A stretch of DNA of 64,000 bases, from positions 17,552 through 81,551 of the forward strand of contig JAFVQU010000003.1 in the NCBI GenBank assembly GCA_017504625.1, in the 5' to 3' direction. The notes under the pieces were generated by a model. That model ran no database searches. It was not told the DNA's origin and saw nothing but the letters and a program-made list of their open reading frames with translations. This DNA comes from Clostridia bacterium (lineage in GTDB: Bacteria > Bacillota > Clostridia > Oscillospirales > CAG-272). Made by a program: the position numbers and the translations under genes. Of this stretch, positions 19,579 to 37,239 are shown in pieces (within the stretch, counting starts at the first letter, position 1; each line of letters begins with the position of its first letter).

Positions 19579-19612
19579 AGAAGATCCCGACAGTGTCGGG
19601 ATCTTCTTTTTA
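19578..19612. terminator. Bidirectional terminator
   Basis: A 14-bp perfect stem (19578-19591 with 19595-19608) and an AGT loop, between convergent genes ending at 19578 and 19610. Confidence 0.9.
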
Positions 19613-21499: not shown

Positions 21500-21500
21500 C

Positions 21501-21722: not shown

Positions 21723-21726
21723 AAAA

Positions 21727-22086
21727 TTACTCCTCAATATGTTCAACACCCATGTTGATTATAGTTTTCACGTGCTCATCGTCAAGAGAGTAGAGCACAG
21801 ACTTGCCTATCTTGCGATATTTTACGAGCCTTGCGTCCTTGAGTATGCGGAGCTGGTGTGAGATAGCCGACATGCTCATCGAGAGCTTTTCTGATATGTC
21901 GCATACGCACATTTCGCCCTCAAAGAGCAGGTAGAGAATTTTTATGCGAGTGCTATCGCCCATCACCGAGAAAAACTCGGCAAGGCAGAAGAAATGTTCA
22001 TCTTCAGGTAAGCTTATGCTGTCAATGATCTCGTGATGCGCCTCGTGAGAGTCGCAAAGCGGTAAATTTCCGTGTTCGTGAGCCAT
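21727..22086 (-). CDS. ArsR/SmtB-family metal-sensing repressor (CadC-like)
   Basis: A 119-residue winged-helix repressor. The start at 22086 has GGAGG upstream. The N-terminal tail is rich in Cys and His (CDSHEAHHE). The alpha-3 metal motif is GEMCVCD, as in CadC, and it leads into the recognition helix SAISHQLRIL. The C-terminal helix keeps most of the alpha-5 site: Asp and His in DDEH, then a His eleven residues later, with Glu in place of the last His. It should dissociate from DNA when Zn, Cd or Pb binds, releasing expression of its own operon. The operator candidate is at 22113-22128. Confidence 0.93.
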   Translation of the reverse strand: MAHEHGNLPLCDSHEAHHEIIDSISLPEDEHFFCLAEFFSVMGDSTRIKILYLLFEGEMCVCDISEKLSMSMSAISHQLRILKDARLVKYRKIGKSVLYSLDDEHVKTIINMGVEHIEE

Positions 22087-22112
22087 TTTTGACCTCCATT
22101 TTCCAACAACAA

Positions 22113-22128
22113 TTGAACAGTTGTTCAA
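22113..22128 (-). promoter_or_regulatory. ArsR/CadC-type operator
   Basis: A perfect palindrome, TTGAAC-AGTT-GTTCAA, lies between the -10 box (22142-22137) and the repressor start codon. Position and form fit autoregulation by the ArsR-family repressor. Confidence 0.78.
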
Positions 22129-22136
22129 CTATTGTT

Positions 22137-22165
22137 ATTATATCATCAAAAACAAAAAATGTCAA
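22137..22165 (-). promoter_or_regulatory. Promoter of the metal-efflux operon
   Basis: Minus strand TTGACA (22165-22160), 17 bases, TATAAT (22142-22137). The -35 box touches the terminator of the upstream BMC operon. Confidence 0.8.
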
Positions 22166-22166
22166 T

Positions 22167-22197
22167 AAAAAACGGAGAATTTTCATTCTCCGTTTTT
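22167..22197 (-). terminator. Terminator of the BMC operon
   Basis: A stem of about 13 bp (22167-22180 with 22185-22197) with A/T tracts, immediately after the last gene of the microcompartment operon. Confidence 0.85.
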
Positions 22198-22209
22198 GAA
22201 ATATTAAAA

Positions 22210-22617
22210 TTAAAGCAAATGAGTGGGCATTTTGCCGCCGATCTGAACTATCTCAACTGCTTCCTTTTCATTGTGCCCGATTACTGCCGCCACGGTTTCG
22301 GGTGCTACGTTTGTAAGAACCGCGGTTTCAACGGTTTTAGCGGGAGCTTCGCTGGGGGGAGTAACCGTTTCCTTGACGGTTTCCTTTTTGGTCGCGGTCT
22401 TCTTTGCAGCAGGCTTTTTAGCGGTAGCTGTGGGAGCCTTTGCCTCTGTCTTTTGTGCGGTAGTCTTAGCGGGAGCCTTCTTTGTGGTTGTAGTCTTCTT
22501 GGCAGGAGCCTTTTGGGGTGCTGCCGCAACAGTTGCTACAAGCTCGGGCGCGATGTTCTTTTCTTCGGTGGTGGTCTTTGCCACTCTCTTTGTGATGCTA
22601 TCCTTACCTATCGGCAT
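22210..22617 (-). CDS. Small disordered partner of the ParA-type ATPase
   Basis: A 135-residue protein with three parts: a short N-terminal block (MPIGKDSITKRVAK), a low-complexity middle (about 30-90) made almost only of Lys, Ala, Thr and Pro, and a C-terminal block (about 95-135) ending IVQIGGKMPTHLL. The ATG lies inside the end of the ParA gene (14-base overlap) with AAAGGAG upstream, so the two are translated together. The basic middle could bind DNA or drive condensation; the ends look like conserved contact motifs. ParA-type ATPases usually have such an adjacent partner that stimulates ATP hydrolysis. It could be analogous to McdB of carboxysomes, but it lacks a terminal Trp and homology is not shown. 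Similar MPIGKDSI/MPxxLL proteins next to ParA may occur outside BMC loci (recollection). Confidence 0.75.
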   Translation of the reverse strand: MPIGKDSITKRVAKTTTEEKNIAPELVATVAAAPQKAPAKKTTTTKKAPAKTTAQKTEAKAPTATAKKPAAKKTATKKETVKETVTPPSEAPAKTVETAVLTNVAPETVAAVIGHNEKEAVEIVQIGGKMPTHLL

Positions 22618-23395
22618 ATTTCATAATCTCCTTTGCCATTTCCATATATTCCTGAGCCGCGCGGCTGGTTTTCTTGTAAGCCATAACGGGTTTGCTGTTG
22701 TCCTGCGACCACTCGACCGTGCTGTCGATCCTGATTATAGATTCGAGAAGTCTTACGTTGTCGAGAGAGGACAGAGTTTCAATGGTCTGCTTGAAATAAT
22801 TTTTGCGCTCGCTTGCCTTAGTAACGGCAATTCCGAGAATCTCAATCGAGGGAGAAATAAGCTTGACCTGCTCGTAAAATTCAAACATATTTGCAAGTCC
22901 GAAAAGTCCCCAAGGCGACGCCTCAACGGGAATTATAAGATAATCGGATGCGCACATAATGTTCATTACCCAGCAACCGAGTGTAGGAGGCGAGTCGATA
23001 AGAATGTAGTCGTACTTGCCCGATTCCTTGATCTTCTTAAGCCCCTGACGGAGAATAAACTCTCTTTGCCACTTGGAAAAGAGCTGGAATTCGATACTGC
23101 TCATAAGCGTGGAGGAAGGTATGAGATCAAGTCCCTCGTACTCGGTCTGAACGATGTATTCGGAAAGATCCCTCTGCTCAACGATACCCGTGTAGATGTT
23201 CTTTCCACTCTGAGCCATTTCAAGCGACTTCTCGTCGTCAAAATAGGATAAGGTAAGATTCATCTGCATATCAGAGTCAATAAGAAGCACCTTTTTGCCA
23301 AGTGTGCTCATAGCGTAGCCAACGTTGGCGCAGGTAGTCGATTTTCCGCTTCCGCCCTTGTTGTTGGCAAAGCAGATGGTTGTCGTTTGAGCCAT
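22604..23395 (-). CDS. ParA/MinD-family ATPase (candidate compartment positioning)
   Basis: A 263-residue ParA-type ATPase. The deviant Walker A is NNKGGSGKST at about 12-21, including the signature Lys; Walker A' is LIDSDMQMN and Walker B is YDYILIDSPP. These proteins dimerise on ATP, bind DNA non-specifically and form gradients that position plasmids, chromosomes, carboxysomes or other cargo. It starts 15 bases after the EutP-like gene with AAAGGACG between, so it is part of the BMC operon. No parB or parS is seen. The immediate partner is the small basic protein overlapping its 3' end. Positioning of the microcompartment is the favoured inference; a general chromosome-related role is the alternative. 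Confidence 0.88.
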   Translation of the reverse strand: MAQTTTICFANNKGGSGKSTTCANVGYAMSTLGKKVLLIDSDMQMNLTLSYFDDEKSLEMAQSGKNIYTGIVEQRDLSEYIVQTEYEGLDLIPSSTLMSSIEFQLFSKWQREFILRQGLKKIKESGKYDYILIDSPPTLGCWVMNIMCASDYLIIPVEASPWGLFGLANMFEFYEQVKLISPSIEILGIAVTKASERKNYFKQTIETLSSLDNVRLLESIIRIDSTVEWSQDNSKPVMAYKKTSRAAQEYMEMAKEIMKYADR

Positions 23396-23410: not shown

Positions 23411-23845
23411 TTATTCCTGATTTAAATAATCGATTATTTTGTCAAGTCCCTCACCCGTATAGGAGCTTACGTAAAAGATTTTCTCGGGCTTAAGTCCGCA
23501 GTTATGAAGCCATCTTTCAGCAAGGGGTACGTTAGCATCCTCCTTGTCAATTCCCGAAATTATGCCTATAACGTCACGGTTTACGTGGTGAGTGCAGTTG
23601 GGGGGGAATACGCAGAAGGGCTCGTTCGCGCTTACGACGAGTCCTATAACGTCTGCTTCGTACGAATAGACTGCCAAAGCCGCCGCCAAGGTGTGTACCT
23701 CGGTGTATTCGCCGGGCGTGTCTATTATCGTATCCATATAGGTGATATATTGAGTTTTGCAGTAGTGTATCTGCTCACCCTTCAAGGCTTGGGTTAAGGT
23801 TGTTTTTCCAGCGGCAACCCTTCCCATCAAAATAAGTTTCTTCAT
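23411..23845 (-). CDS. EutP/PduV-family GTPase
   Basis: A 144-residue small P-loop protein. The start at 23845 overlaps the stop of the shell gene by one base (TAATG). The P-loop is GRVAAGKTTL at the N-terminus, DTPGEY is the G3 motif, and GIDKED is near the G4 position. The family occurs in ethanolamine and propanediol BMC operons; PduV binds the outside of the compartment and has been linked to its movement, and EutP to acetate kinase-like activity. Being next to a ParA-type ATPase at the end of the operon, a role in compartment dynamics is plausible. Confidence 0.9.
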   Translation of the reverse strand: MKKLILMGRVAAGKTTLTQALKGEQIHYCKTQYITYMDTIIDTPGEYTEVHTLAAALAVYSYEADVIGLVVSANEPFCVFPPNCTHHVNRDVIGIISGIDKEDANVPLAERWLHNCGLKPEKIFYVSSYTGEGLDKIIDYLNQE

Positions 23846-24216
23846 TACGTGCGGGTCATTTCGCATACAGAAAATTTAAGAACGTTTCTGAAATATTCTG
23901 TAATTGCAGTAAATGATGCCTCAACCTCTGCAACCTTACCCGTGATGATGAGCGTACCCGAGAATCTGTCAACGAAACCGAGGTCTGCGCCCGAGGACTT
24001 GAGAGCAATATCTGCGGTAATGACTGCGGTTTCCGCGGGGCTTACCGTAAGCACGCCGATCGCCGCCTTCTCGTAATCAAGCTTGGGATCAAGACCGAGC
24101 TTCTGATAGAGTGTGGGGTCGGGATTTGCGATAATATGAGCAAGAGTGATCTGACGACCGGGCACCAGCTCCTGCACTATTCTCATTTTATCTTGAAATT
24201 CAAAATTGTTTGACAT
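23845..24216 (-). CDS. BMC shell protein, PduU/EutS type
   Basis: A 123-residue circularly permuted BMC-domain protein. The N-terminal part RIVQELVPGRQITLAHIIANP is diagnostic of EutS/PduU, which forms a small beta-barrel cap over the hexamer pore. The following part (GVLTVSPAETAVITADIALKS, LGFVDRFSGTLIITG) is the BMC fold. The C-terminus ends with CEMTRT, as in EutS. An insertion (YQKLGLDPKLDYEKAA) lengthens the junction. Ribosome binding site GGAGG lies within the last codons of the activase gene. Confidence 0.93.
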   Translation of the reverse strand: MSNNFEFQDKMRIVQELVPGRQITLAHIIANPDPTLYQKLGLDPKLDYEKAAIGVLTVSPAETAVITADIALKSSGADLGFVDRFSGTLIITGKVAEVEASFTAITEYFRNVLKFSVCEMTRT

Positions 24217-24218
24217 AA

Positions 24219-25016
24219 TTATCCTCCGATCTGGACGTGAAGCTTAGTTGACGCGCCCTCAGCCGCCTTAAGAAGCATATTCATATGCTCGTTTGCGGGA
24301 GGAGCGATGCCGTCCATAAGATAGGTGCGGCCAAGACCTGCATACTTGTCCTGACCAAGTCTGTGGTAAGGAAGCAGATGCATTTCGGTCACGTTAGGGA
24401 GAGAATCGGCAAATCTTGCAATTGCCGCGATCTCTGCGGGCGTGTCGTTGAAGGTCGGCACGACGGGTACACGGATAATAAGGTGATTTGCGTTTTCTGC
24501 AATATATTTGGCGTTTTCAAGGATCTGCCCGTTCTCCTGAGTGGTAAATTCCTTGTGCTTTGCGCTGTCCATGTGCTTGATGTCCATTAAGAAGTGGTCA
24601 ACGTGGGGAAGTAAGCTCTGTACGACCTCGCGGTGAGCAAACGCAGTCGTTTCAATTGCGGTCGAGAAGCCAAATTCATGCGCCGCACGGAGAAGAGCCT
24701 CAGCAAACTCGGGCTGAGCCATGCACTCGCCGCCCGAAAGAGTAAGACCGCCTCCACTCTTTGCATAATAGATTCGATCCTTAAGGACTTCCTCCATTAC
24801 CTCGGCAACTGTCACGTCGCGGCCCATTATCTCAACCTTGCCGCCACGCGTCATTTCTTCTATTTTGTATTCCTGTGATTCGGGATTGCAGCACCACTTG
24901 CAACGAAGATAGCAACCCTTGAGGAATACTATCGTTCTTATTCCGGGACCGTCGTGCAACGAATATCTCTGAATATCAAAGATACGCCCCGTCTGTTCAA
25001 ATATGTTCTTTGCCAC
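24219..25016 (-). CDS. Glycyl radical enzyme activase (radical SAM)
   Basis: A 265-residue radical SAM enzyme with GTG start and AAAGGAG site. The [4Fe-4S]-SAM motif is CYLRCKWC (CxxxCxxC), preceded by SLHDGPGIRT, the activase signature. SGGE in LTLSGGEC contacts SAM. It generates the glycyl radical on the diol dehydratase encoded upstream, using SAM and an electron donor. Many activases of this group carry an inserted ferredoxin-like domain with eight Cys just after the first motif; here the chain passes directly from CNPESQ to the next helix, so that insert is absent. Confidence 0.93.
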   Translation of the reverse strand: MAKNIFEQTGRIFDIQRYSLHDGPGIRTIVFLKGCYLRCKWCCNPESQEYKIEEMTRGGKVEIMGRDVTVAEVMEEVLKDRIYYAKSGGGLTLSGGECMAQPEFAEALLRAAHEFGFSTAIETTAFAHREVVQSLLPHVDHFLMDIKHMDSAKHKEFTTQENGQILENAKYIAENANHLIIRVPVVPTFNDTPAEIAAIARFADSLPNVTEMHLLPYHRLGQDKYAGLGRTYLMDGIAPPANEHMNMLLKAAEGASTKLHVQIGG

Positions 25017-25252: not shown

Positions 25253-27784
25253 TTATAATCCGCCTTGCTCGGTACGGTTGATGATATCGTCCTGAAGCGA
25301 GCGGGAGAGGGTAGTGAAGAGTGCGCTATAACCTGCAACTCTTACTACGAGAGTTTTATACTTTTCGGGATTCTTCTGCGCGTCGATAAGAGTTTCTCTC
25401 GAAACTACGTTATACTGAACGTGCATACCCTTCTGATCGAAGTATCCGCGGAGGTAAGCCACGAACTTTTCAAGGCTTGACATGCTCGAAAGAGCGGAGG
25501 GATGGAACTTCTGGTTGAAGAGCGTACCGTTAGATGCGATACCGTGGTCAAGGCGCGCAACAGAGTTTGCAGTAGCGGTCGGACCCTTGATATCTCTGCC
25601 CGAAGCGGGGCCTACGCCGTCCGCAATGGGAGTGTACGCCAATCTTCCGTCAGGAGTAGCGCCGGTCTGATATCCGAGCGGGACGTTAGCCGATACGGGA
25701 TAAAGACCTGCTTGGAAGATGCCTCCACGGGGATTGGTGAAATTCTCGAAGGGCTTGGTGTATGTGTTGCCAACCTCACGCGCAAACGCGTCAACCTCGG
25801 TAATATCGTTACCGTACTTGGGGAGAGCCTCGATCATTCGGAGGATCTCGTCGTATCTTGCTTTTTTATCTGCAGAAATATGAGAAGCGTTGATAAGACC
25901 GTTGTAGATCTCCTTGATAACGGCTTCGTTGATAGCAATACCCTCGGCTGCAAGATTCTTTGCAACCTCAACTGTAAGCTCGCTAGCCTTCTTGGGAATG
26001 AATCCCTTACCGAAGTTGTCGGCAAGTGCCTGCTTCATCTCAGCCATGGTAACTTTCTTTTCCTCGAAGACGAGAGTCTTGATCGCAAGAAGAGCGTCTG
26101 TCATATTTGCAATACCGAATCCCTGAGGACCGGTGAAGTTGTAGTGCGCGCCACCTTCCTGAAGCGAAACACCGCGCTCAATGCAATCGTTGCAGAGGCA
26201 GGACTGGAAGGGGAGAGGACAACGAACGCTGTGAGCATAGTCAACCGCGTTGTCGGCATGTACCATCATTTCTATAAAGTGAAGCTCCTGAGCCTTGTAC
26301 GCATCAAAGAACTCTTCAAACGTGGTCATCTTTTCAACGTCACCGGTCTGAAGACCGATAAGCTCGCCCTTGTCGTAGCCGTTCGAGAAAACAAGCTCGA
26401 GAGGACGGCACATATTGAAGAATGCCGCATCGTGCCAGCCGTCGGTTCTTGCGCCCTTCTGAGGCTCAACGCAACCGATTATACAGTAATCACGCGCATC
26501 CTGAAGGGTAAGACCTCTTGCCATAATAGCGGGGATAATGACCTCGTCGTTGTAGAACGCGGGAACGCCAAGGCCCTCTCTCGTAACTGCCGCCGCCTTT
26601 ATAAGAAGATCGTGGGGAGTGCAGTTCCATACACGGATGGAAAGCGAAGGCTGGGGAAGACGAACGTGCATCGTTGCTTCCATACACATGTAGGAAAGCT
26701 CGTTGGTAACGTCAACACCGTCCTCGTTCTGACCGCCTACGATAAGGTTCTGGAAGAGTCCGTATCCTGCAAATCCTTCTGCGGATGCCGCATCTCTTAC
26801 CTTGGTAAGATCGTTAAGCTTTACCCAAATACAGTCAAGGTATTCCTGCGCCTCTTCAAGTGTGATAGTACCGTTGTCAAGATCCTTCTTGAAGAGAGGA
26901 TACATATACTGGTCAAAACGACCGGGGGAGATCGAGTGTCCGCTTGATTCGCACTGAATAAGCTGCTGAACGAACCAGAACGCCTGGCAAGCCTCGTAGA
27001 AGTTGCGCGCGGGTTTTGCGGGAACTCTGTCACAGGTCTCTGCAATGCGGAGAAGCTCTGCCTTACGAACGCTGTCGGTGCATTTACCTGCTTCCTTAAG
27101 AGCAAGCTCGGAGTAGCGGCGAGCGTAGAAAATTACTGCCTCACAGCTTTCAATTACAGACTCAAGGAAGTTCTTGCGGCTAAGATAATCGCCGTTACCG
27201 ATGTAGAGCTTTGCCATTGCTTGACGAGCTTCTTCAATAACGCCCTCAAGACCTTTGTATATAACCTTTGCGTAGTCAACGTTGATGTGACCGATACCGT
27301 TGTAGAAGTAGTTTCCTACGGTGAAGATTCCATGGTTAAGAAACACGTCAAGAACCTCGGGGTCCATAGACTGTGCCGCGAGATCGCTTACAGTCTTACC
27401 CTTCCAGTAAGGATGTACCTTCTTAAGTCTTTCAACGGTTTCGGGAGAGATGTAGAAGCGGTCTGCATCTCTTGTTGCGATTGTATCGTATTCACCCTCA
27501 AGCCATTCAAACGAGTACTCGGGGAAGGTCTGACAGCTACGGGGAACTATCGAGTTGCTTCCGACGATAAGCTCTTCGGGACGAATGACTATCGGAATGT
27601 TCTCAAGTATGTGGCGAAAAGCTGCAGAACGACGCTTCACTATCGGAAGACCTTCAGTCTGCTTGTAGCTTTCGGTGATCAGCTCGGCTCTGTCTGCCTC
27701 GATCTGAGGTGTAGCCGCATAAAGATGATCGATAAGCCTCTGAATTCTTGGGCTTTTTTCTATAACGAATTTAATTTGATTCAT
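25253..27784 (-). CDS. Glycyl radical 1,2-propanediol (diol) dehydratase
   Basis: An 843-residue glycyl radical enzyme. The thiyl Cys438 lies in CIIGCVEPQ with the catalytic base Glu440; HDAAFFN follows with Asp452. The radical site is RVAGYSALF with Gly818. His166, His283 and Ser284 match the diol-binding residues His164, His281 and Ser282 of Clostridium butyricum glycerol dehydratase by simple offset, so it belongs to the diol-dehydratase subgroup and not to pyruvate formate-lyase. It should turn 1,2-propanediol into propionaldehyde without B12, inside the microcompartment; glycerol is a possible alternative. The protein begins straight at the core (SPRIQRL), with no N-terminal encapsulation extension. 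AAGGAG ribosome binding site. Oxygen-sensitive when activated. Confidence 0.93.
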   Translation of the reverse strand: MNQIKFVIEKSPRIQRLIDHLYAATPQIEADRAELITESYKQTEGLPIVKRRSAAFRHILENIPIVIRPEELIVGSNSIVPRSCQTFPEYSFEWLEGEYDTIATRDADRFYISPETVERLKKVHPYWKGKTVSDLAAQSMDPEVLDVFLNHGIFTVGNYFYNGIGHINVDYAKVIYKGLEGVIEEARQAMAKLYIGNGDYLSRKNFLESVIESCEAVIFYARRYSELALKEAGKCTDSVRKAELLRIAETCDRVPAKPARNFYEACQAFWFVQQLIQCESSGHSISPGRFDQYMYPLFKKDLDNGTITLEEAQEYLDCIWVKLNDLTKVRDAASAEGFAGYGLFQNLIVGGQNEDGVDVTNELSYMCMEATMHVRLPQPSLSIRVWNCTPHDLLIKAAAVTREGLGVPAFYNDEVIIPAIMARGLTLQDARDYCIIGCVEPQKGARTDGWHDAAFFNMCRPLELVFSNGYDKGELIGLQTGDVEKMTTFEEFFDAYKAQELHFIEMMVHADNAVDYAHSVRCPLPFQSCLCNDCIERGVSLQEGGAHYNFTGPQGFGIANMTDALLAIKTLVFEEKKVTMAEMKQALADNFGKGFIPKKASELTVEVAKNLAAEGIAINEAVIKEIYNGLINASHISADKKARYDEILRMIEALPKYGNDITEVDAFAREVGNTYTKPFENFTNPRGGIFQAGLYPVSANVPLGYQTGATPDGRLAYTPIADGVGPASGRDIKGPTATANSVARLDHGIASNGTLFNQKFHPSALSSMSSLEKFVAYLRGYFDQKGMHVQYNVVSRETLIDAQKNPEKYKTLVVRVAGYSALFTTLSRSLQDDIINRTEQGGL

Positions 27785-27973: not shown

Positions 27974-28519
27974 TTAAATCTGCGCCCAGAGCTCTGCGTG
28001 GGGAGCAGGTATAACGGTTGAGCCGAAGAATACACCCTGATCCTTAGCGTGCTGAGAGCCTGCCTCAACAGCTGCGGTGACGTCGCCAACGTCGCCGGTT
28101 ACAAGGCAAACGCCCTTACCGCCCATACCGCGAGAGGTACGAAGTTCGAAGATGGAAACCTTTGCGGTCTTTACTGCGATATCAGCCGCCTTTATGATAG
28201 AAGCAGCAGAGAATGTTTCAATAATTCCAAGGCTGCCCTTCTTCTCAGAGGGCTCTGTGCCGAAGAGGGCGGTAACCACCTGGGGATCGATGCGTCCCAT
28301 AATGGAGTAGTCAACAAGCTTTTCATCGAATCTGCCTCTTACGTGGTCAACAGCCGCAGTAACGTCGGAGATAGAGCCGGTGAGGATTATCTCATACTTA
28401 CCGGGACAAGCTGCGTGTGCGGAAATAAGGCTGATGCCTGCGCTCTTGAGAGCTGCGTCGGTTGCCTCAATGCCTTTTGCTATACTTTTAAGTTCAATTA
28501 CACCTATTGCGTGATACAT
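27974..28519 (-). CDS. pduT: Tandem-BMC shell protein, PduT type
   Basis: A 181-residue trimer-forming protein with two BMC domains (about 3-85 and 94-180). Cys38 occurs in ACPGKYEIILTG, the same position and context as the Cys that holds a [4Fe-4S] cluster at the trimer centre in PduT. It is thought to pass electrons across the shell. The second domain contains LGIIETFSAASIIKAAD and GKGVCLVTGDVGDVTAAVEAG. Its gene lies directly downstream of the PduS-like gene (30 bases), the known partner. Confidence 0.92.
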   Translation of the reverse strand: MYHAIGVIELKSIAKGIEATDAALKSAGISLISAHAACPGKYEIILTGSISDVTAAVDHVRGRFDEKLVDYSIMGRIDPQVVTALFGTEPSEKKGSLGIIETFSAASIIKAADIAVKTAKVSIFELRTSRGMGGKGVCLVTGDVGDVTAAVEAGSQHAKDQGVFFGSTVIPAPHAELWAQI

Positions 28520-28549: not shown

Positions 28550-29875
28550 TTACGCCTCAATTACTATCTTTGTGGGATCTACGAATACGACCTTACCCGA
28601 GATCGACGCGTGCTGGGGAACCGAAAGTCCTGTGCCAAGTCCCGCGATAACCTGTCCTTCGGTAACTACGTCGCCTACATTTACGCAGGGAACGGAGGGA
28701 GCGCCGATGTGCTGAGACATCTTGATCTCAACGCGAGAAGCCTTGATCTTTTTGGGGAGGTATTTGGGAACAACGTCGTATTTATGTACTCCGAGAATGT
28801 CTTCCCACTTTGCAGATTGGATCATACGGTACTCTCTGTCAGAGCTTACCTTATATTCTTCGTTGCCTGCAACGAATCTCATCTTATTCTTTGCGAGAAT
28901 GCCCTTGAGATTGAGAATGACGTCCTTGGGTGAGATCTCCTGGCAGCAGACCTCTGCGCAAATGCCGCAAGAGCAACAAAGGGAAGCAGTCTTGATAAGG
29001 TCGGGATGATCTTCAGCAGCTGCATTGAGCGCAACTCTGATCATCTTATGAGGCTCAAGAGGATATCCGAGAAGGTGTCTGGGACACATTTCGGTACATC
29101 TGGTACATCCGCAACAAGCGGAGCTTGCGCGGCGAAGCATATCGTCCATAGCAACTCTCTTGTTCTTTACGCAACGAGCGCTGTCGGGAATGATAAGAAG
29201 CGATTTTGTGGTTTTTGTAATAACCGCGACTGCGGGATCGACGATCTTACCCATTGAAGGGCCGCCGTCGAACATGATCTGATCATCCTTAAGACGAACG
29301 CCGAGAATATCGAAAAGCTCCGAAACTCTCATGCCTACGGGAACCTTAACGACGTATCTTTCGGGAAGATCACCGCCAATGGTAACCCACTTTTCAGTAA
29401 CGGGCTTACCTTCCTTAACCGCTTCGCATACGTTGTATACCGTCTCGCCGTTGAGAACGATAACTCCTGCAGTGATAGGAAGATTGCCGGGCTTGACAAT
29501 GCGTCCGGTTGCCTGATAGATGAGAGAGATTTCATCGCCCATCGGGTAAACGTTGGGAAGAAGCTTTACGCTAACGTCCTTACCGAGCATCTGATCGTCG
29601 GAGTAACCGAGCATGTGTGCGCGATGCTCCTTTATTGCAACGTAGGTGTGCTTGATTCCGGTATACGCCATAACTGCCTGCGCGCCCTCAACGATCTTGC
29701 TCATTTCTTCGCGCATAAGCATATAGTCGGTATACATAAGGGGCTCACATTCTGCACAGTTGATGCAGAGAATGTCGGCTCCGTCCGCCAGCTTTCCAAA
29801 GGAGGGGAAGCCTGCGCCGCCCGCGCCTACGATACTGCTATTCTGCATTAAAGATTTTAAATCAAATTTTGTCAT
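28550..29875 (-). CDS. pduS: PduS-like NADH-oxidising Fe-S flavoprotein (RnfC family)
   Basis: A 441-residue protein with an N-terminal GAGGAGFPS motif and the RnfC/NuoF-type FMN/NADH domain (to about 230), an SLBB-like segment, and two [4Fe-4S] ferredoxin motifs (CCGCTRCTEMCP and CSCGICAEVC). A barrel-sandwich-like tail ends in PTKIVIEA. PduS proteins oxidise NADH in BMCs; in B12 systems they reduce cobalamin. Here no B12 enzyme is present, so recycling NAD+ inside the compartment by passing electrons to PduT is the likely role. The AAAGGA site is 32 bases before ATG, with a small stem (29885-29899) between them. Confidence 0.9.
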   Translation of the reverse strand: MTKFDLKSLMQNSSIVGAGGAGFPSFGKLADGADILCINCAECEPLMYTDYMLMREEMSKIVEGAQAVMAYTGIKHTYVAIKEHRAHMLGYSDDQMLGKDVSVKLLPNVYPMGDEISLIYQATGRIVKPGNLPITAGVIVLNGETVYNVCEAVKEGKPVTEKWVTIGGDLPERYVVKVPVGMRVSELFDILGVRLKDDQIMFDGGPSMGKIVDPAVAVITKTTKSLLIIPDSARCVKNKRVAMDDMLRRASSACCGCTRCTEMCPRHLLGYPLEPHKMIRVALNAAAEDHPDLIKTASLCCSCGICAEVCCQEISPKDVILNLKGILAKNKMRFVAGNEEYKVSSDREYRMIQSAKWEDILGVHKYDVVPKYLPKKIKASRVEIKMSQHIGAPSVPCVNVGDVVTEGQVIAGLGTGLSVPQHASISGKVVFVDPTKIVIEA

Positions 29876-29935: not shown

Positions 29936-30199
29936 TTACGCCTGCTTTTTATCTACAATTCCGACTACCGCCGCGTCAACGGGAATGTCCTGATTGCCAA
30001 CGGCAACTCTTGCGCCGCTGCCGGTAGTTACGAGAACTTCCTCTCCGATGCCTGCGCTTACGGTGCGATCAACCGCCACTATGTACTTGTCGGTAAGCTC
30101 CTGATTTTCAATAAGCTGGATCTCAAGGAACTTGAAGCCGATAAGTTTGTCGAGCTTATTGGTCGAAACGATATTTCCAACTACTTTTCCTTTTAACAT
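29936..30199 (-). CDS. BMC vertex protein, EutN/CcmL type
   Basis: An 87-residue pentamer-forming (BMC-P) protein. The family pattern is clear: LKGKVVGNIVSTNK at the start, a middle with LIGFKFLEIQL and DRTVSAGIGEEVLVTTGSGAR, and PVDAAVVGIVD near the end. Five subunits cap each vertex of the icosahedral shell. It has an AGAGG site and lies between pduL (18 bases) and the PduS-like gene (60 bases). Confidence 0.95.
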   Translation of the reverse strand: MLKGKVVGNIVSTNKLDKLIGFKFLEIQLIENQELTDKYIVAVDRTVSAGIGEEVLVTTGSGARVAVGNQDIPVDAAVVGIVDKKQA

Positions 30200-30217: not shown

Positions 30218-30880
30218 TTAATCTTTTACAACGGTAACCTTGCTGCCGTTTTTGAAGCCGACTGCGTTTGCATCGTCGGTGTCAACGTGCATTTCAAGGC
30301 GGAAGTCCTTGTGAACTCTGACCTGAACGTCAAACCATCTTGTCCTCTTGGTTCCGGACATAGCATCAACGTCGATGTAATCGTTGTCCTTAACTCCGAA
30401 GCGAGTCGCGTCGTCGGGACTCATGTGGATGTGACGGTTAGCGATGATACAACCCTGCGAGAGCTTAACTATACCCTTAGGGCCGATGATCGTGATGGGA
30501 GAGGATCCCGTAAGGCTTCCCGATTCACGAACGGGGGGCTTTACCTTAAGAACGTAGGAATCAGTGACCGATATCTCGACCTGACTTGCTTTTCTCAGCG
30601 GGCCAAGAACTCTTACGCCTTCAATTGCCTTCATGGAAGGACCTACGATAGTCAAGGTCTCCTTGCAAGCGTACTGACCGGGCTGGGAGAGATCCTTTAA
30701 GTGTGTAAGCTCGTAGCCCGTGCCGAAGAGCGTTTCAAGATCTTCTTTTGTCAGGTGAATGTGTCTGTTAGAAATACCAACGGGAATTTCAAGCGCACCG
30801 CCGTTACATGATGCGGTGCCAGTCATTTCATTTACGATCTTTTTTACGATGCTTTCAATATCCTGTGTCGAAATGCTCAT
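30218..30880 (-). CDS. pduL: Phosphate propanoyltransferase PduL
   Basis: A 220-residue PduL. The first 19 residues (TQDIESIVKKIVNEM) form an amphipathic helix typical of an encapsulation peptide, followed by a short linker. The catalytic part has two HxH zinc motifs, NRHIHLTKEDL (His40/His42) and NRHIHMSPDDA (His150/His152), in the two half-barrels. It converts propionyl-CoA and phosphate to propionyl phosphate and CoA, regenerating CoA within the compartment. Acetate kinase at the head of the operon can then make ATP. Confidence 0.95.
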   Translation of the reverse strand: MSISTQDIESIVKKIVNEMTGTASCNGGALEIPVGISNRHIHLTKEDLETLFGTGYELTHLKDLSQPGQYACKETLTIVGPSMKAIEGVRVLGPLRKASQVEISVTDSYVLKVKPPVRESGSLTGSSPITIIGPKGIVKLSQGCIIANRHIHMSPDDATRFGVKDNDYIDVDAMSGTKRTRWFDVQVRVHKDFRLEMHVDTDDANAVGFKNGSKVTVVKD

Positions 30881-31048: not shown

Positions 31049-31324
31049 TTAGCCGAGAGTGGGGAGGAGCTTGTTAACGTCAGTGTGAGGTCTGGGGATA
31101 ACGTGAGTTGCAATAACCTCGCCGAGAGCGGAAGCTGCTGCGCCGCCTGCCTCAACTGCTGCCTTTACTGCACCAACGTCGCCGCGAACCATAACGGATA
31201 CGAGTCCGCTACCGATCTTCTCGGAACCGATAAGCTGTACGTTTGCTGCCTTAACCATAGCATCTGCTGCCTCGATTGCTGCTACGAGACCTCTGGTCTC
31301 TACCATTCCCAATGCTTCATTCAT
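31049..31324 (-). CDS. BMC-H shell protein (copy B)
   Basis: A 91-residue single-domain BMC hexamer protein of the PduA/EutM type. [20 protein letters not shown] opens the fold, [22 protein letters not shown] follows, and [11 protein letters not shown] closes it. The pore loop KIGSG is the usual short polar loop. It is a near-identical copy of the protein at 31762-32037, differing only at residue 66 (Ala here, Arg there). These would form the main hexagonal tiles of the shell facets. AAGGAG site. Confidence 0.95.
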
Positions 31325-31380: not shown

Positions 31381-31665
31381 TTAAACGCCTTTGTCAGTTT
31401 TAATGAATCTGATAATGTCGGGATGAGGACGTGCAATAACTTCCTTACACATAACCTGACCGACTGCCTGCGCGGCTTCGACACCCGCCTCAAGAGCGGC
31501 AGTAACTGCCGAAACGTTACCTTCAACGACAACTGTCACAAGTCTTCCGCCCAAGCGCTTTTCAACGTGGATAAGCTTAACGTTTGCAGCCTTGACCATA
31601 GCGTCAAGACCAACGATAGCCGTTACCATTGCTTGAACTTCAAGCAGTGCAATTGCATTTTCCAT
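31381..31665 (-). CDS. BMC-H shell protein, divergent
   Basis: A 94-residue single-domain BMC protein. It has the same fold (AIALLEVQAMVTAIVGLDAM, VKLIHVEKRLGGRLVTVVVEGNVSAV, VIARPHPDI) but is clearly different in sequence from its two neighbours. The pore loop reads KRLGGR and is more basic, suggesting a pore with different selectivity. The C-terminus (RFIKTDKGV) is slightly extended. TAGGAG site. Confidence 0.93.
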   Translation of the reverse strand: MENAIALLEVQAMVTAIVGLDAMVKAANVKLIHVEKRLGGRLVTVVVEGNVSAVTAALEAGVEAAQAVGQVMCKEVIARPHPDIIRFIKTDKGV

Positions 31666-31761: not shown

Positions 31762-32037
31762 TTAACCGAGAGTGGGGAGAAGCTTGTTAACGTCGGTGTG
31801 AGGTCTGGGGATAACGTGAGTAGCGATAACCTCGCCGAGTCTGGAAGCTGCTGCTCCGCCTGCCTCAACTGCCGCCTTTACCGCGCCAACGTCGCCGCGA
31901 ACCATAACGGATACGAGTCCGCTACCGATCTTTTCGGAACCGATAAGCTGTACGTTTGCTGCCTTAACCATAGCATCTGCTGCCTCGATTGCTGCTACGA
32001 GACCTCTGGTCTCTACCATTCCCAATGCTTCATTCAT
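31762..32037 (-). CDS. BMC-H shell protein (copy A)
   Basis: A 91-residue PduA/EutM-type hexamer protein, almost identical to the one at 31049-31324 (Arg66 instead of Ala66). The first half of the genes and the AAGGAGATTTA leader are nearly base-identical, while the last third of the coding region has several silent changes. The pair arose by duplication around the divergent BMC-H gene or is kept alike by gene conversion. Residue 66 lies near the subunit edge region, so the exchange may alter tile contacts; this is inference. Confidence 0.95.
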
Positions 32038-32094: not shown

Positions 32095-32427
32095 TTATTT
32101 ATCCATGTTTCTGAGCTTATCCTTACCGGTTGCGGTAAGATCTGCAAACCACTGTACCTGATCGTCAAGACCTGCGATCATCTTGGAGGTGATGTAAAGA
32201 CCGCGTCTTTTCGCCTCCTCAACGCCTGCGTCGAGAGCCGACTGAACTGCTCCCGCGTTGCCCTGGAACTTAACTACCATAACCAGCGGTACCGCGCACT
32301 GCTCTGCGTTTGCGGGTTTGTTTTTGTCAATGGCTACAACCTTGACGTCGGCGGTTTTTGCCACCAAGTCTGCTACTACTATTGAGGTGGTGTAGCCGTA
32401 AACCTCAATCATACCAAGTGCTGCCAT
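32095..32427 (-). CDS. BMC-domain shell protein with insertion
   Basis: A 110-residue BMC-domain protein that starts ALGMIEVYGYTTSIVVADLVAKTADVKV. Compared with the standard 91-residue form it has a longer pore-side loop (DKNKPANAEQCAVP, with a Cys) and a C-terminal extension that ends in ATGKDKLRNMDK. Family is certain; subtype is not. It is the first shell gene of the operon, 12 bases after the alcohol dehydrogenase gene, with a TAGGAG site. It may be a minor facet protein or one with a cluster- or cargo-binding role. Confidence 0.88.
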   Translation of the reverse strand: MAALGMIEVYGYTTSIVVADLVAKTADVKVVAIDKNKPANAEQCAVPLVMVVKFQGNAGAVQSALDAGVEEAKRRGLYITSKMIAGLDDQVQWFADLTATGKDKLRNMDK

Positions 32428-32439: not shown

Positions 32440-33666
32440 TCAGTTTTCGTTGATATAGCAGATCTTGATACCCTTCTGCGCTACGTTGGTTTCCATAGCC
32501 TCATTCATCTTGTCGAGAGGGAAGGAATGAGTGATAAGCTCTTCGATCGGTATGTTCATTTCCTGACACTGCTTTAAGAATGCCACGGTCTTGGGGTAGT
32601 CCTCAGCGGAGTAATCCCAAGAGCCTACGATATCGATCTCCTTGTTACACATAGCAAAGTGGGGATTTACCTGATATTCTCCGTTGTTTACGAAGAAGCC
32701 CATCTCGCACATACCGCCGCCGCGACGGATGTAGCTGTAGATGTCTGCAGCCGCTATGGGAGCGCCGGTGCACTGGAAAGCAAAGTCAACGCCAACGTTA
32801 TTAGCGATAGCCTTTACCTTTGCAACTCTCTTGTCAAGCGTGTCCTCGTCGGGACGACGGAAGCAGATAGTTGTCTTTGCGCCCATTCTCTGTGCGACCT
32901 TGAGTCTGTCCTCGTTACCGTCAACCGCGATGATGTGGTTGATACCTGCAGCGCGGAGAACCGTGATCATAACAAGACCTACGGGGCCGCAGCCCTGAAC
33001 GAGAACCTTAGAGCCGAAGTTGAGAAGACCGGTCTTCTGACCTCTCTCGAGTGCGTGTACGCATACGCAAGCAAGCTCGAGGATCATTCTCTGCTTGAGG
33101 TTAAGCTCGTTAACCTGGAAATATGTAACGCCGTGTCCGCCCTTGATCACCATGTAATCTGCGAACCAGCCGTTAACTCTGTTGCCCTCAGCCGTTCCTC
33201 TCTTATCACCGATAAGACCGAAAACGCCCTGATTGTCACAAAGATTTGTTCTGCCGGGAACCATACGGCAAGCGTAGCAATCGCCACAGCTGAGAACCGA
33301 GGTGACGATCTTGTCGCCAACCCTAAGGGGCTTGCCCGCGGTGTCGCTTGTTACGTTCTTTCCTACCGCAACGACCTCGCCCGTGCCCTCGTGACCGAGA
33401 ATTACGGGAATAAGTCCGAAGGGATCGGCTTTCCATTCATGTACGTCAGTTCCGCAAACGCCTGCACCTTCAACCTTAACGAGAATATCGTTATCGCCAA
33501 GTGCGGGGATCGGGATCTTTTGTACTTCTATCTTTTTCTGACCGACAAGCATTGCAACGTTAGCAGTGGTGGGGATGGGGCCCTGTGCCTTTGCGGTAGC
33601 GCCTGTACCCATCGAGCTGATAACCGAGCGAACGATGCTTTCGATCTGAGAAGCTGTGATATCCAT
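32440..33666 (-). CDS. Zinc alcohol dehydrogenase with encapsulation peptide
   Basis: A 408-residue medium-chain dehydrogenase. Residues 4-20 (ASQIESIVRSVISSMG) form an amphipathic helix like that of PduL, then a Gly/Ala/Pro linker to about 35: an encapsulation peptide. Catalytic zinc residues are Cys71 (GAGVCGTDVHE) and His92-Glu93 (GHEGTGE); the structural zinc Cys set lies in SCGDCYACRMVPGRTNLC. The nucleotide-binding turn is GCGPVGL. It likely reduces propionaldehyde to 1-propanol, regenerating NAD+ for the aldehyde dehydrogenase; reduction of lactaldehyde to propanediol is an alternative. Confidence 0.92.
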   Translation of the reverse strand: MDITASQIESIVRSVISSMGTGATAKAQGPIPTTANVAMLVGQKKIEVQKIPIPALGDNDILVKVEGAGVCGTDVHEWKADPFGLIPVILGHEGTGEVVAVGKNVTSDTAGKPLRVGDKIVTSVLSCGDCYACRMVPGRTNLCDNQGVFGLIGDKRGTAEGNRVNGWFADYMVIKGGHGVTYFQVNELNLKQRMILELACVCVHALERGQKTGLLNFGSKVLVQGCGPVGLVMITVLRAAGINHIIAVDGNEDRLKVAQRMGAKTTICFRRPDEDTLDKRVAKVKAIANNVGVDFAFQCTGAPIAAADIYSYIRRGGGMCEMGFFVNNGEYQVNPHFAMCNKEIDIVGSWDYSAEDYPKTVAFLKQCQEMNIPIEELITHSFPLDKMNEAMETNVAQKGIKICYINEN

Positions 33667-33696: not shown

Positions 33697-35157
33697 TCAG
33701 ATAATTCTGAAGCTGTCCACCATTACGCAACGGCGCTTTCTTGTGAAGGAACGAGCCGAGGTGATACCCTCGCCGGTAGGACCTGCGATGGTAAAGGTGG
33801 TGTGTCCCTCGCCGCCGAAGCCGATGCCTGCATAGGAGGGAGCGTTCTTAACGAAGATAGTCGTTTCAACCGCACGGGCGAACGCGGTGAGGTTGTCGAT
33901 GTTCTTCGAATGCATGTGAGCGGTGTGGCGGTTGCCGTGCTCAGCCTTAACAGCCAAGTCAATAGCCTCGTCGATGTCCTTTACGCGAACGATACCGAGA
34001 ATAGGCATCATAAGCTCTTCCTGCACGAAGTCGTGCTCGAAGGGAACCTCAGCGATAGCGCAACGGATCTCGGGACCGACCTTGATGCCGATCTTCTCAA
34101 GGATCACGCGGCAGTCACGACCTACACAGTCGCGGTTGACCGACTTGGTTATCTTACCATTCTTGCCTTCCTTTTCAACAAGGACAACCTTTGCAAGAGC
34201 GTCTGCCTGAGCCTTCGTAAGAAGGATACAGCCGTTCTTCTTCATGCCTGCGATAAGTCTGTCGGCAACGTTGTTAAATACGAAAACTTCCTTTTCGGCG
34301 ATACAGGGGAGGTTGTTATCGAAGGTACATCCGTCGATAATATCCTTTGCTGCCTTATCGATGTCAGCCGTGTCGTCGACGATAACGGGAGGGTTACCCG
34401 CGCCCGCGCCGATAGCCTTCTTGCCCGAGGAGAGAACCGCGCGAACAACGCCGGGGCCACCCGTGCAAACGAGGAGCTTGATCGAAGGATGCTTATACAT
34501 AACGTTTGCGGTATCAAGCGTAGGCTTGACAACGCTTGCAACGAGCACGCGGGGACCGCCTGCCGATGCTACTGCGCGGTTAACGAGGTCAACGGCGTAG
34601 TTGGATGTAGCGATAGCGCCGGGGTGGGGGTTGAAAACAACGCCGTTTCCTGCCGCTATCATACCGATACTGTTACAGATAACAGTTTCGGAGGGATTGG
34701 TCGAGGGTGTGATCGCACCGACTACTCCGAAGGGAGCCATTTCAGTGAGAGTCAAGCCACAGTCACCTGTTCTTGCCTCTTCGATGATATCCTCGGTACC
34801 GGGAGTCTTGTCAGCCACGAGAAGATGCTTTGCATACTTGTGATCAACGCGACCCATCTTGGTTTCAGCAACTCCGAGAGCCGCCAGGGTCTGAGCCTCG
34901 GCTCTGGTAAGCTCTCTGATTGCCGTAATGATCTTTTCTCTCTGAGCTACCGTCATGGAGCGAACTGCCTTGTATCCTGCGTTTGCTACCTCGATGGCTT
35001 CTTCCATCGTTTCGTAAACACCGATAAGGCGGCGTCCGCGGTACTGGGTGGAATCCCATTCCTTAACTGCGGTTGACGGAGCAGAGGGCTTTTTGAATTC
35101 CGATACAACGCGAGCAACGATTTCGTTGATCTGCGCCTCGGTCAAATTATTAACCAT
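33697..35157 (-). CDS. pduP: CoA-acylating aldehyde dehydrogenase, PduP type
   Basis: A 486-residue enzyme. Residues 4-22 (LTEAQINEIVARVVSEFKK) are the classical N-terminal encapsulation helix, followed by a Pro/Ser linker. The catalytic Cys285 is in NNLPCIAEKE, and CTGGPGVVRAV carries the nucleotide-binding site. It oxidises propionaldehyde with NAD+ and CoA to propionyl-CoA. AAGGAG site. Together with PduL and acetate kinase it makes the ATP-yielding oxidative arm; with the alcohol dehydrogenase it balances NADH. Confidence 0.95.
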   Translation of the reverse strand: MVNNLTEAQINEIVARVVSEFKKPSAPSTAVKEWDSTQYRGRRLIGVYETMEEAIEVANAGYKAVRSMTVAQREKIITAIRELTRAEAQTLAALGVAETKMGRVDHKYAKHLLVADKTPGTEDIIEEARTGDCGLTLTEMAPFGVVGAITPSTNPSETVICNSIGMIAAGNGVVFNPHPGAIATSNYAVDLVNRAVASAGGPRVLVASVVKPTLDTANVMYKHPSIKLLVCTGGPGVVRAVLSSGKKAIGAGAGNPPVIVDDTADIDKAAKDIIDGCTFDNNLPCIAEKEVFVFNNVADRLIAGMKKNGCILLTKAQADALAKVVLVEKEGKNGKITKSVNRDCVGRDCRVILEKIGIKVGPEIRCAIAEVPFEHDFVQEELMMPILGIVRVKDIDEAIDLAVKAEHGNRHTAHMHSKNIDNLTAFARAVETTIFVKNAPSYAGIGFGGEGHTTFTIAGPTGEGITSARSFTRKRRCVMVDSFRII

Positions 35158-35188: not shown

Positions 35189-36004
35189 TTACTTACCGAG
35201 AGCTGCGATAACCTTTCTGGTGATCTCAGCTACGAGATCGTCACCTGCGGGAGCAGAGTGAGAGCCGCAGTCACACTTGCCGTCAGCACACTTGCAGTTT
35301 GGAGTACCCTTGTTGGGGCAGGACTTGCATCCGGGATGCTTGCCGGGGAGACCCATCTTCTTACGAAGCTCCATAAGTCTCTCAAGCTCGTGGCAGGAGA
35401 TCTCGTCGATGCGGCTGTTTGCGCCTGCACCGATCTGACGAGCGTAAAGGTTGATCTTTGCGTTGAACTCTACCTCTTCCATGGTGAAGCAAGCTCTGAG
35501 AAGAGTGTTACCAACGGTAAGAGCACCGTGGTTCTTAAGAAGGAACGCGTCGTGCTTCTGGATATAGGGCATAAGGGAGTCGGGAATCTCCATGGTGGAG
35601 GGCATACCGTAGTCACAGGTAGGAACGTTACCGATGGTGAGAATTGCCTCGGGAAGAATGTACTGGTCGAGCTCTACGCCTGCAACGGTGAATGCGGTTG
35701 CAACGGGGGGATGAGCGTGAACGACAGCGTTAACGTCGGGACGCTCCTGATAAACTCTCATGTGCATCTTGATCTCGGAGGAGGGGTTGAGTCTACCTTC
35801 AACCTTGTTGCCGTTGCCGTCGATCTTGATGATCATGTCGGGGGTCATGTAGCCCTTGGATACACCGGTAGGGGTGCAGTAATACTCGTTGGGGCCAACC
35901 TTAACGGAAATGTTACCGTCGTTTGCTGCTACGAAACCGTGATCGTAAATTCTCTTACCGATGTCACAGATTTCTCTCTTGATTTCAAAGGGTGATCTTG
36001 CCAT
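35189..36004 (-). CDS. Class II aldolase with Cys-rich linker and C-terminal encapsulation helix
   Basis: A 271-residue fusion-like protein. Residues 1-215 are a class II aldolase/adducin domain: GNISVK, Glu77 in SSEIKMH, His96 and His98 (VHAHPP) and His159 (NHGAL) form the zinc site seen in L-fuculose-1-phosphate aldolase. It is expected to split fuculose- or rhamnulose-1-phosphate to dihydroxyacetone phosphate and lactaldehyde. Residues 224-250 hold six Cys (226, 229, 237, 239, 244, 246) in a CxxC-x7-CxC-x4-CxC pattern. Residues 255-271 (DDLVAEITRKVIAALGK) look like a C-terminal encapsulation peptide. The Cys segment is unusual and may bind metal. Kinases and isomerases for the sugars are not in this window. 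Confidence 0.92.
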   Translation of the reverse strand: MARSPFEIKREICDIGKRIYDHGFVAANDGNISVKVGPNEYYCTPTGVSKGYMTPDMIIKIDGNGNKVEGRLNPSSEIKMHMRVYQERPDVNAVVHAHPPVATAFTVAGVELDQYILPEAILTIGNVPTCDYGMPSTMEIPDSLMPYIQKHDAFLLKNHGALTVGNTLLRACFTMEEVEFNAKINLYARQIGAGANSRIDEISCHELERLMELRKKMGLPGKHPGCKSCPNKGTPNCKCADGKCDCGSHSAPAGDDLVAEITRKVIAALGK

Positions 36005-36045: not shown

Positions 36046-37239
36046 TTATTTAACCAGCTCAAAGGTATCGGACGCGATCATATATTCCTCGTCTGTGGGA
36101 ATTACGACTACCTTTACCTTGGAGTCGGGAGCACTGATTATAAGATTTTCGCCTCTGGGGCCGTTCATGTTGGCCTCGCGGTCGAGCTTGATGCCGAAGA
36201 ACTCAAGATTGTCGCCGATAAGCTGACGGGTGAGTCTGTCATTTTCACCAAGACCTGCGGTGAAGATAAGAACGTCAATTCCGTTCATCTCTGCAACGTA
36301 AGAGCCGATGATCTTCTTTGCGTAGTGAACAAGAAGCTCCATAGCGAGCTTTGCTCTTTCGTTACCCTGGTCTGCAGCTGCCCAAACGTCACGCGCGTCG
36401 TTGGAAACGCCCGAAACGCCGAGAAGTCCCGACTTTTTGTTCATAATATCGTTGACCTCAGCGGCAGTCATGCCGGTTTGCTCTATTATGTAAGGGATGA
36501 TAGAGGGGTCGATAGAACCGCAACGGGTACCCATGGGAAGTCCCTCCTGAGGAGTGAATCCGAGAGAGGTATCAATTGCCTTACCGCAGTCAACCGCTGT
36601 GATAGAGGATCCTGAGCCGATATGGCAGGAAACTATCTTGGTGCTGTTATAGTCAAGACCGAGGAACTTACAAGCCTCAGCGGAAACATAGCGGTGGCTT
36701 GTTCCGTGGAAGCCGTAGCGGCGAACACCGTACTTTTCATACCACTCATAGGGGAGGGGATAGATGTAGGTCTTTGGCTCGAAGCCTGAATAGAAGGAGG
36801 TGTCGAATACGCCTGCCTGAGGAGTGTCGGGCATAAGAGCCATACAAGCGGCAACGCCCTTAAGCGCGGGAGGTCCGTGGAGGGGATTGATGGGTATGAT
36901 CGATTCGATATACTTGATCTCCTCTTCGCCGAGAAGGCAGGACTTGTTGAGCTTGCCTCCGTGAGCAAATCTGTGTCCTACTGCGCTGATCTCGCTGACG
37001 TCGGCGATAACGCCGTATTCTGCGTCGGTGAGAAGCTTGAGGACGAGAGCGATAGCTTCGTTGTGGGTAGGCATGGGGTAATCTGCTTCGTAGTTTTCCT
37101 TACCGGGACGCTTGTGGGTGATAGCACCGCTGAGTCCTATTTTTTCGCAAAGACCCTTTGCAAGCACCTTGCCGCTTTCCATATCAAAGAGCTGATACTT
37201 AAGCGAGCTGCTTCCGGCATTGATTACCAGAATTTTCAT
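36046..37239 (-). CDS. ackA: Acetate/propionate kinase
   Basis: A 397-residue ASKHA-fold kinase. Motifs: MKILVINAGSSSLKYQL at the N-terminus (phosphate 1), VGHRFAHGG, YGFHGTSHRYVS (the adenosine/phosphate segment), HIGSGSSITA and FTAGLGEND. It makes ATP and acetate or propionate from the acyl phosphate. As first gene of the BMC operon it fills the place of PduW, acting on propionyl phosphate made by PduL. No targeting extension is visible, so it probably works in the cytosol. It may also be the cell's main acetate kinase, since no pta is adjacent. GGAAAGGAA site. Confidence 0.95.
   Translation of the reverse strand: MKILVINAGSSSLKYQLFDMESGKVLAKGLCEKIGLSGAITHKRPGKENYEADYPMPTHNEAIALVLKLLTDAEYGVIADVSEISAVGHRFAHGGKLNKSCLLGEEEIKYIESIIPINPLHGPPALKGVAACMALMPDTPQAGVFDTSFYSGFEPKTYIYPLPYEWYEKYGVRRYGFHGTSHRYVSAEACKFLGLDYNSTKIVSCHIGSGSSITAVDCGKAIDTSLGFTPQEGLPMGTRCGSIDPSIIPYIIEQTGMTAAEVNDIMNKKSGLLGVSGVSNDARDVWAAADQGNERAKLAMELLVHYAKKIIGSYVAEMNGIDVLIFTAGLGENDRLTRQLIGDNLEFFGIKLDREANMNGPRGENLIISAPDSKVKVVVIPTDEEYMIASDTFELVK

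Follow-up and report, generated by a model that had tools for sequence, protein, structure and literature searches.

A ParA-type ATPase and its small partner as a probable McdAB-like positioning system encoded at the end of a GRM5-type microcompartment operon

In a 64,000-nucleotide stretch of a Clostridia genome, hereafter the window, a single long bacterial microcompartment (BMC) operon occupies 37239 to 22210 of the minus strand, and its final two genes encode a ParA-type ATPase and then a small partner protein, which together probably constitute an McdAB-like positioning or partition system for a GRM5 microcompartment, a type of BMC that degrades fucose and rhamnose via 1,2-propanediol. 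The pair looks like a motor and its adaptor because nearly every ParA genome tested has BMC genes, even when the two lie apart. Here we describe the two genes, the conserved ends of the partner, the separate clade formed by the ATPase and the dependence of the pair on BMC-bearing genomes, for which diffusion-ratchet positioning of GRM5 BMCs would be the simplest reading.

Excerpts of PMC6325248 define GRM5 loci by a 1,2-propanediol dehydratase-type glycyl radical enzyme (GRE), a fuculose-phosphate-type aldolase, a lactaldehyde reductase, PduT together with PduS, and an activase without a ferredoxin insert. The window operon comprises the following features, in order of transcription:

36046..37239, minus strand: acetate/propionate kinase, the operon's first gene (Pfam PF00871)
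35189..36004, minus strand: class II aldolase, fuculose/rhamnulose-phosphate-type (PF00596, 2.8e-47)
33697..35157, minus strand: aldehyde dehydrogenase, probably CoA-acylating (PF00171)
32440..33666, minus strand: zinc alcohol dehydrogenase, probable lactaldehyde reductase (PF00107, PF08240)
32095..32427, minus strand: BMC-H shell protein
31762..32037, minus strand: BMC-H shell protein
31381..31665, minus strand: BMC-H shell protein
31049..31324, minus strand: BMC-H shell protein
30218..30880, minus strand: PduL phosphate propanoyltransferase (PF06130, 3.3e-76)
29936..30199, minus strand: BMC-P pentamer, EutN/CcmL (PF03319, 1.5e-25)
28550..29875, minus strand: PduS/RnfC-like electron-transfer protein (rnfC 8.6e-61, below the model cut-off)
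27974..28519, minus strand: PduT-like BMC-T shell protein with two BMC domains (eut_PduT 3.6e-31, below cut-off)
25253..27784, minus strand: glycyl radical enzyme, 1,2-propanediol-dehydratase type by context (PFL-like 3e-236, Gly_radical 3.7e-33)
24219..25016, minus strand: glycyl radical enzyme activase, 265 aa, in which Pfam sees no ferredoxin insert
23845..24216, minus strand: EutS/PduU-type BMC-H shell protein (PF00936, 3.3e-12; EutS 4.4e-30, below cut-off)
23411..23866, minus strand: EutP/PduV-type small GTPase-like protein (Pfam PduV-EutP PF10662, 1.7e-46)
22604..23395, minus strand: ParA/MinD-type ATPase, 263 aa, deviant Walker A NNKGGSGKST (Pfam AAA_31, 8.1e-53)
22210..22617, minus strand: partner/adaptor, 135 aa, no Pfam family, conserved end motifs
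22166..22197, minus strand: terminator-like hairpin and U-run 3' of the partner gene (RNA folding)

By the published gene criteria, the predicted products make the operon a complete GRM5-type (fucose/rhamnose, 1,2-propanediol) locus, an assignment in which the hits to the PduT and PduS-like models fall short of the curated thresholds.

The ParA protein begins MAQTTTICFANNKGGSGKST (263 aa). A preliminary description of this DNA had placed a ParA with an intact KGGSGKST 15 bases past the EutP/PduV gene, with a partner overlapping it by 14 bases and both genes ahead of the operon terminator, an arrangement confirmed here: the ParA gene starts at 23395, next to EutP/PduV at 23411-23866, the overlap spans 22604-22617, and folding of the RNA downstream of the partner (22150-22215) gives a 13-bp stem at -17.5 kcal/mol (z -5.0); a consensus terminator scan downstream of the partner gene found none. 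Shine-Dalgarno-like sequences, read by eye, stand 5' of both genes (AAAGGACGG and AAAGGAG), and an arsR-like gene beyond the hairpin has its own sigma-70-like promoter, a 12/12 match at 22165-22137. Just past the BMC terminator, 19610-22128 reads by eye as an ArsR-like regulator, a small metal-binding-like protein and a heavy-metal-type P-ATPase. Within the operon, the BMC-H proteins of 31049-31324 and 31762-32037 appear by eye to be one residue apart (AAASALGEV vs AAASRLGEV), with a third BMC-H between them, and are read as the product of a recent duplication or gene conversion; equal-scoring BMC-H pairs also occur in several relatives. Elsewhere in the window, tandem similar genes at 54813-56006 and 56174-57325 encode proteins starting KKYDIAAFIWPAYTGKEPRT and KKYDIAAYIWPAYTGKEMRT, respectively, which we take to resemble WbsX/GH99-type proteins.

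BMC shell genes were found in 65 of the 66 ParA genomes tested, many of which carry the pair away from the operon, the sole genome without a BMC match, G492, being 76% complete. These 66 genomes, made up of 17 relatives, 34 members of a 299-genome sample, eight further genomes and seven from family f77, are not one random sample, since six were included only because ParA was not seen beside BMC genes. All 17 ParA-bearing relatives have BMC genes, in a set of 98 genomes of which 24 have BMC matches above the Pfam cut-off (Fisher 7.6e-14), and the 299 genomes evenly sample the GTDB family to which Ca. Galacturonibacter belongs (assumed to be Lachnospiraceae): ParA occurs in 34, BMC genes in 92 and both in 34, leaving no genome with ParA without BMC and 58 with BMC without ParA (Fisher 2.5e-20). 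Like the other Fisher values given here, these overstate independence because the genomes are related. BMC genes were also present in all eight further ParA genomes (12 tested, four belonging to the 34) and in six of the seven more ParA genomes of family f77, G492 being the miss. In the portions of the open-licence literature consulted, no earlier paper with a co-occurrence test of this ParA with BMC genes was found.

The nearest GTDB loci of the ParA belong to Clostridia metagenome-assembled genomes, many from animal guts according to their records. Among the best 80 of 474 such loci, the closest copies usually follow straight after EutS and EutP, and 72 have a shell gene in the sampled flank, 71 by a window-like shell gene and one (L123) added by Pfam, which also confirmed L102; each of the eight loci without a flanking shell gene lies in a genome with BMC genes. 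In G482 the two are clearly apart on one contig, ParA standing at 1,002 kb and the nearest shell match at 535 kb, and in G758 it is probably also apart, 87 kb from a shell gene among the matches listed. On the ParA tree, the linkage label, which was set by hand and is affected by contig breaks that add noise and inflate the unlinked class, changes 12-13 times, at least 5-6 of these changes being forced by well-supported branches. Since unlinked ParA copies still reside in BMC genomes, linkage has been repeatedly broken and dependence kept.

The preliminary description had cautioned that related pairs may occur in clostridia without BMC genes, so that the linkage could be incidental. Unlinked pairs do exist, yet their genomes carry BMC genes, save the one that is 76% complete. 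That a partition cassette stands by chance beside BMC genes, as might be supposed from the commonness of ParA genes and the copies found away from BMC genes, is extremely unlikely when all 34 ParA genomes have BMC genes in a sample where 92 of 299 do, and when the eight GTDB loci without flanking shell genes all lie in BMC genomes; the 65 of 66 count, which includes many genomes with the pair away from the operon, indicates that the linkage is not incidental. We also consider it very unlikely that the pair positions some other fucose/rhamnose structure co-occurring with GRM5, such as an enzyme cluster or a transporter. In keeping with such a role, several of the ParA genes in one clade lie near what read by eye as an AraC-type regulator, rhamnulokinase and rhamnose isomerase, but a window-like shell gene flanks 71 of the best 80 of 474 GTDB copies.

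The preliminary description had also proposed that the pair serves a glycyl-radical BMC, which is supported both by the shell genes of the ParA genomes and by the enzymes they encode. A propanediol-type GRE (E<=1e-200, 53-68% identity) was detected in 32 of 34 ParA-bearing versus 21 of 46 ParA-lacking BMC genomes (Fisher 3.2e-6; 46 of the 58 ParA-lacking BMC genomes were searched, 80 genomes in all), and an aldehyde dehydrogenase query (E<=1e-120) matched in 31/34 versus 32/46. The best reading is that the McdAB-like system would serve mostly GRM5 BMCs. Within the 299-genome sample, 21 BMC genomes have a GRE but not the pair, and five GRM5-like operons from the window's family (L176-L180) contain EutP, EutS, GRE and aldolase with no such ParA. 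As GRM5-like operons without ParA exist, the pair is an accessory module, mostly of GRM5-type BMCs; the ParA/partner system is dispensable. EutP/PduV, encoded beside the pair and suggested in passages of PMC8262871 to help position Pdu BMCs, is GTPase-like rather than a ParA and also occurs in GRM5-like operons without the pair; it was discarded as a discriminating neighbour or cause of the linkage, given the five same-family operons that have EutP without ParA.

Close ParA orthologues occur in 17 of the 98 relatives at 55-100% identity, and each is followed by a small partner, not a ParB, whose ORF carries both end motifs in 17/17, a pairing beyond chance. The next full-length matches in the 98 relatives reach at most 36% identity among the matches listed, and the short ones comprise two 47-48-residue fragments in G032 (50-51%) and one partial match in G091 (37%). 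In L014 (1501-2265, G006), the ParA start is out of frame, reflecting a frameshift or an assembly error, and this sequence was left out of alignment A1. Across a class-wide even sample, 3 of 391 genomes, the window's own included, pass a ParA threshold of E<=1e-45. The window genome (G000; 1.96 Mb, 30 contigs) encodes two further ParA proteins, one full-length (33% identity) and one partial (34%); the idea that the pair is this genome's own chromosomal ParA system was dropped, the other full-length ParA being a different gene.

A ParA tree of 131 rows places 117 close copies apart from 14 Soj rows, with a long branch between them and support of 100/100, and on this tree the window ParA clade is separate from chromosomal Soj. 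Each of the 13 Soj loci listed (L020-L032) is followed by an ORF that reads as ParB by eye. Chromosomal Soj/ParB was accordingly rejected as an identity for the pair, there being a separate ParA clade and no ParB with a DNA-binding part beside the ParA. Compared with solved chains, the ParA profile matches ParA/Soj best (8ray 8.4e-41, 6iub 1.5e-33) and beta-McdA well below (6noo 9.5e-18), the McdA side of the comparison covering beta-McdA. The window offers one feature of McdA, a deviant-Walker-A ParA/MinD-type ATPase encoded with a BMC and an McdB-like gene, but as ParA/Soj chains outrank beta-McdA among the solved structures, sequence does not identify the ATPase as an McdA.

The window partner combines an N-terminal MPIGKDSITKR, a K/A/T/P-rich linker and a C-terminal MPTHLL, and with a net charge of +10 and a pI of 9.8 it is a basic, probably disordered protein. 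To define its family, we assembled 100 distinct proteins from 144 loci whose ParA has at least 45% identity, chosen by an N-terminal pattern that fixed or limited positions 1, 3, 4, 5, 7 and 8, the C-terminus being no criterion. All 100, with lengths of 63-207, end in [ML]-P-x-[YHFW]-L-[LMF]; P at -5, L at -2 and an aromatic residue or His at -3, all outside the picking pattern, are thus invariant, the -3 residue being Y in 66, H in 14 (as in the window), F in 11 and W in 9. R or K at position 10, likewise outside the pattern, is found in 97/100, and K5 in 99/100, although K/R at that position belonged to the pattern. D or E occurs at -7 in 61/100 and at -8 in 54/100. The linkers are rich in A, K, P, T and E, with a median disorder-promoting residue fraction of 0.92, and net charge has a median of +9 and a range of -6 to +28. 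In sequence terms, the family is one of fixed ends and a free middle.

The window partner matches no Pfam family, ParB_N included, and gives only histone-like matches below cut-off. A histone-H1-like nucleoid protein, with the pair regulating the operon or compacting DNA, would fit the median net charge and the matches to HC2 (histone H1-like) at E<=0.01 in 24/103 partners, below cut-off for the window partner. These matches, however, arise from K/A/P composition, some partners go down to a net charge of -6, and it is the ends that are conserved and not the basic middle, so that we rate this reading as highly improbable and dropped a histone-like DNA protein as a candidate, its matches reflecting composition only.

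Eighteen loci gave no pattern match: L037 (the same place as L035), six with variant partners (L145, L157, L160, L169, L171, L174) and 11 with no partner adjoining ParA (L035, L102, L123, L139, L155, L156, L158, L159, L161, L165, L172). Among the variants, the L145 partner exceeds the pattern's length limit and in the remaining five K5 is replaced by T, A or S; variant tails include LPIFLR in L169 and I before P in L160 (IPVYLL) and L174 (IPTYLL). In L157, L169 and L174, ParA and partner follow by eye a BMC-T gene and DeoR-type regulator ORFs, a recurrent arrangement. Two partner-less loci belong to family f77, and the other nine (L102, L123, L155, L156, L158, L159, L161, L165, L172) form one supported ParA-tree clade. 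Neighbours in this clade, by eye or BLAST, are AraC-type and rhamnose genes or a GRE, and Pfam identifies a PduB-like BMC-T neighbour in L102 and L123. Scanning the sampled ParA loci and BMC operons revealed no displaced partner apart from the adjacent one of L174. A DNA pattern of the N-terminal motif was also run against the 11 genomes lacking an adjacent partner and against G540, whose partner is a variant one; in these 12 genomes it returned only spurious ORFs, the positive control recovering 3/6 and spurious hits also appearing in 2/6 ParA-free genomes.

Pfam detects ParB_N in nine of the 103 partners, flanked each time by the conserved head and tail; seven come from family f77 (L036, L140-L145) and two from the 299-genome sample (L146, L153). 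The L145 partner, of 375 aa, has a long K/A/P-rich stretch ahead of the domain. GERR is the motif of canonical ParB, and it is present in 13 of 14 ParBs compared; the ParB_N partners have GHKR, GNRR, GYRR or GYHR at that position. The pair therefore resembles Soj-Spo0J in its ParA family and in the ParB_N common to nine partners, and differs from it in its separate ParA clade, in this altered motif and in a window partner without ParB_N. With the ParA tree rooted on Soj, the first branches belong to seven of the nine f77 rows, and L146 and L153 lie nested within the tree, a placement consistent either with an ancient ParB_N that was lost many times or with gains that were separate; the ParB_N domain tree has long branches and is compatible with one origin or several. 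The occurrence of ParB_N in nine partners suggests that the partner is a ParB-slot protein, an adaptor linked to ParB. More tentatively, and as a reading we hold to be possible rather than probable, the partner might be a stripped-down ParB that kept its ParA-touching N-terminus, swapped parS binding for a shell-docking tail and, across most lineages, lost the CTPase-type ParB_N domain that nine relatives retain. No paper on ParB_N-bearing BMC adaptors was found in the parts of the open-licence literature consulted.

In the positioning model, ParA-ATP dimers would bind the nucleoid non-specifically, and the [ML]PxYLL-type C-terminal tail of the partner would dock on BMC shell or cargo while its basic N-terminal MPIGKxSIxR motif touches the ParA dimer. 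By analogy with ParA and McdAB work, this contact would stimulate the ATPase, triggering ATP hydrolysis and ParA release, and the local loss of ParA would move BMCs apart along the nucleoid as in a diffusion ratchet, so that spaced BMCs may avoid clumping and both daughters may inherit them. Passages of PMC12866334 count against positioning, reporting that Salmonella Pdu BMC distribution is unchanged in parA and minD mutants. Alternatively, the pair could aid BMC assembly or prevent sticking, as a condensate-forming adaptor recycled by its ATPase with little nucleoid positioning. The same BMC dependence would be expected, the linkers consist largely of disorder-promoting residues, McdBs can form condensates (passages of PMC11321042), and the minor shell protein PduK stops polar aggregation of Salmonella Pdu BMCs (excerpts of PMC13052382), so that spacing need not depend on a ParA. 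Nevertheless, a ParA with an intact Walker A and a partner with a basic N-terminal motif are the usual make-up of a diffusion ratchet, and nine partners carry ParB_N, which makes the assembly role unlikely.

The McdAB systems of alpha- and beta-carboxysomes are the closest parallel to the proposed positioning system in that they, too, pair a ParA-family ATPase with a small adaptor encoded with the BMC. For candidate McdB-like proteins encoded at PDU and GRM loci, PMC11321042 cites MacCready 2020. According to passages of PMC11321042 and PMC12204374, McdA acts on the nucleoid and McdB has a basic N-terminus and a short C-terminal motif with an aromatic and nearby acidic residues: in H. neapolitanus McdB, the first 20 residues, K7 among them, contact McdA (PMC12204374, preprint), and association with carboxysomes requires a tryptophan at the C-terminus together with acidic residues beside it (PMC11321042). 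The basic N-terminus is shared by our partners, as in their R/K10. Overall, the partners are laid out like McdB, with a basic head, an unconstrained linker and a tail that has acidic residues around -7/-8 and an aromatic residue or His at -3. Unlike McdAB, the system described here belongs to a GRM5 BMC, has a ParA profile far nearer to ParA/Soj and includes partners with ParB_N, and whereas carboxysomal McdB has an invariant C-terminal W, W stands at -3 in 9/100 partners and the window has H.

The preliminary description knew of no established positioning system for this BMC class, which holds for experiments but not for predictions, as candidate McdB-like proteins at PDU and GRM loci have been mentioned in earlier papers: passages of PMC11321042 give them Y or F in their last five residues, and excerpts of PMC8262871 mention them too. 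The GRM proteins are GRM-associated like our partners and have acidic residues near the Y/F; Y or F occupies -3 in 77/100 partners, and the window's last five residues, PTHLL, contain neither. Compared by description alone, the partner family is probably the published GRM McdB-like family. ParA is listed among accessory families of BMC loci in parts of PMC4207490, and the main text of PMC8217296 has no words beginning McdA, partition or MinD. Co-occurrence without linkage and ParB_N forms do not appear in the relevant passages of PMC11321042. Thus, putative McdB-like proteins near GRM loci were known, and ParB_N between the same end motifs in nine relatives is new.

Among ParA-type systems that distribute BMCs within cells and to daughters, that of carboxysomes is the one worked out. 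For GRM5-type BMCs, the pair offers concrete genes, end motifs to mutate and a phylogenetic argument, that of an often unlinked yet dependent system. The ParB_N forms provide a testable bridge between DNA partition and organelle partition, and should the partner prove to be a reduced ParB, McdB-like BMC adaptors would, in this case at least, descend from proteins that partition chromosomes or plasmids.
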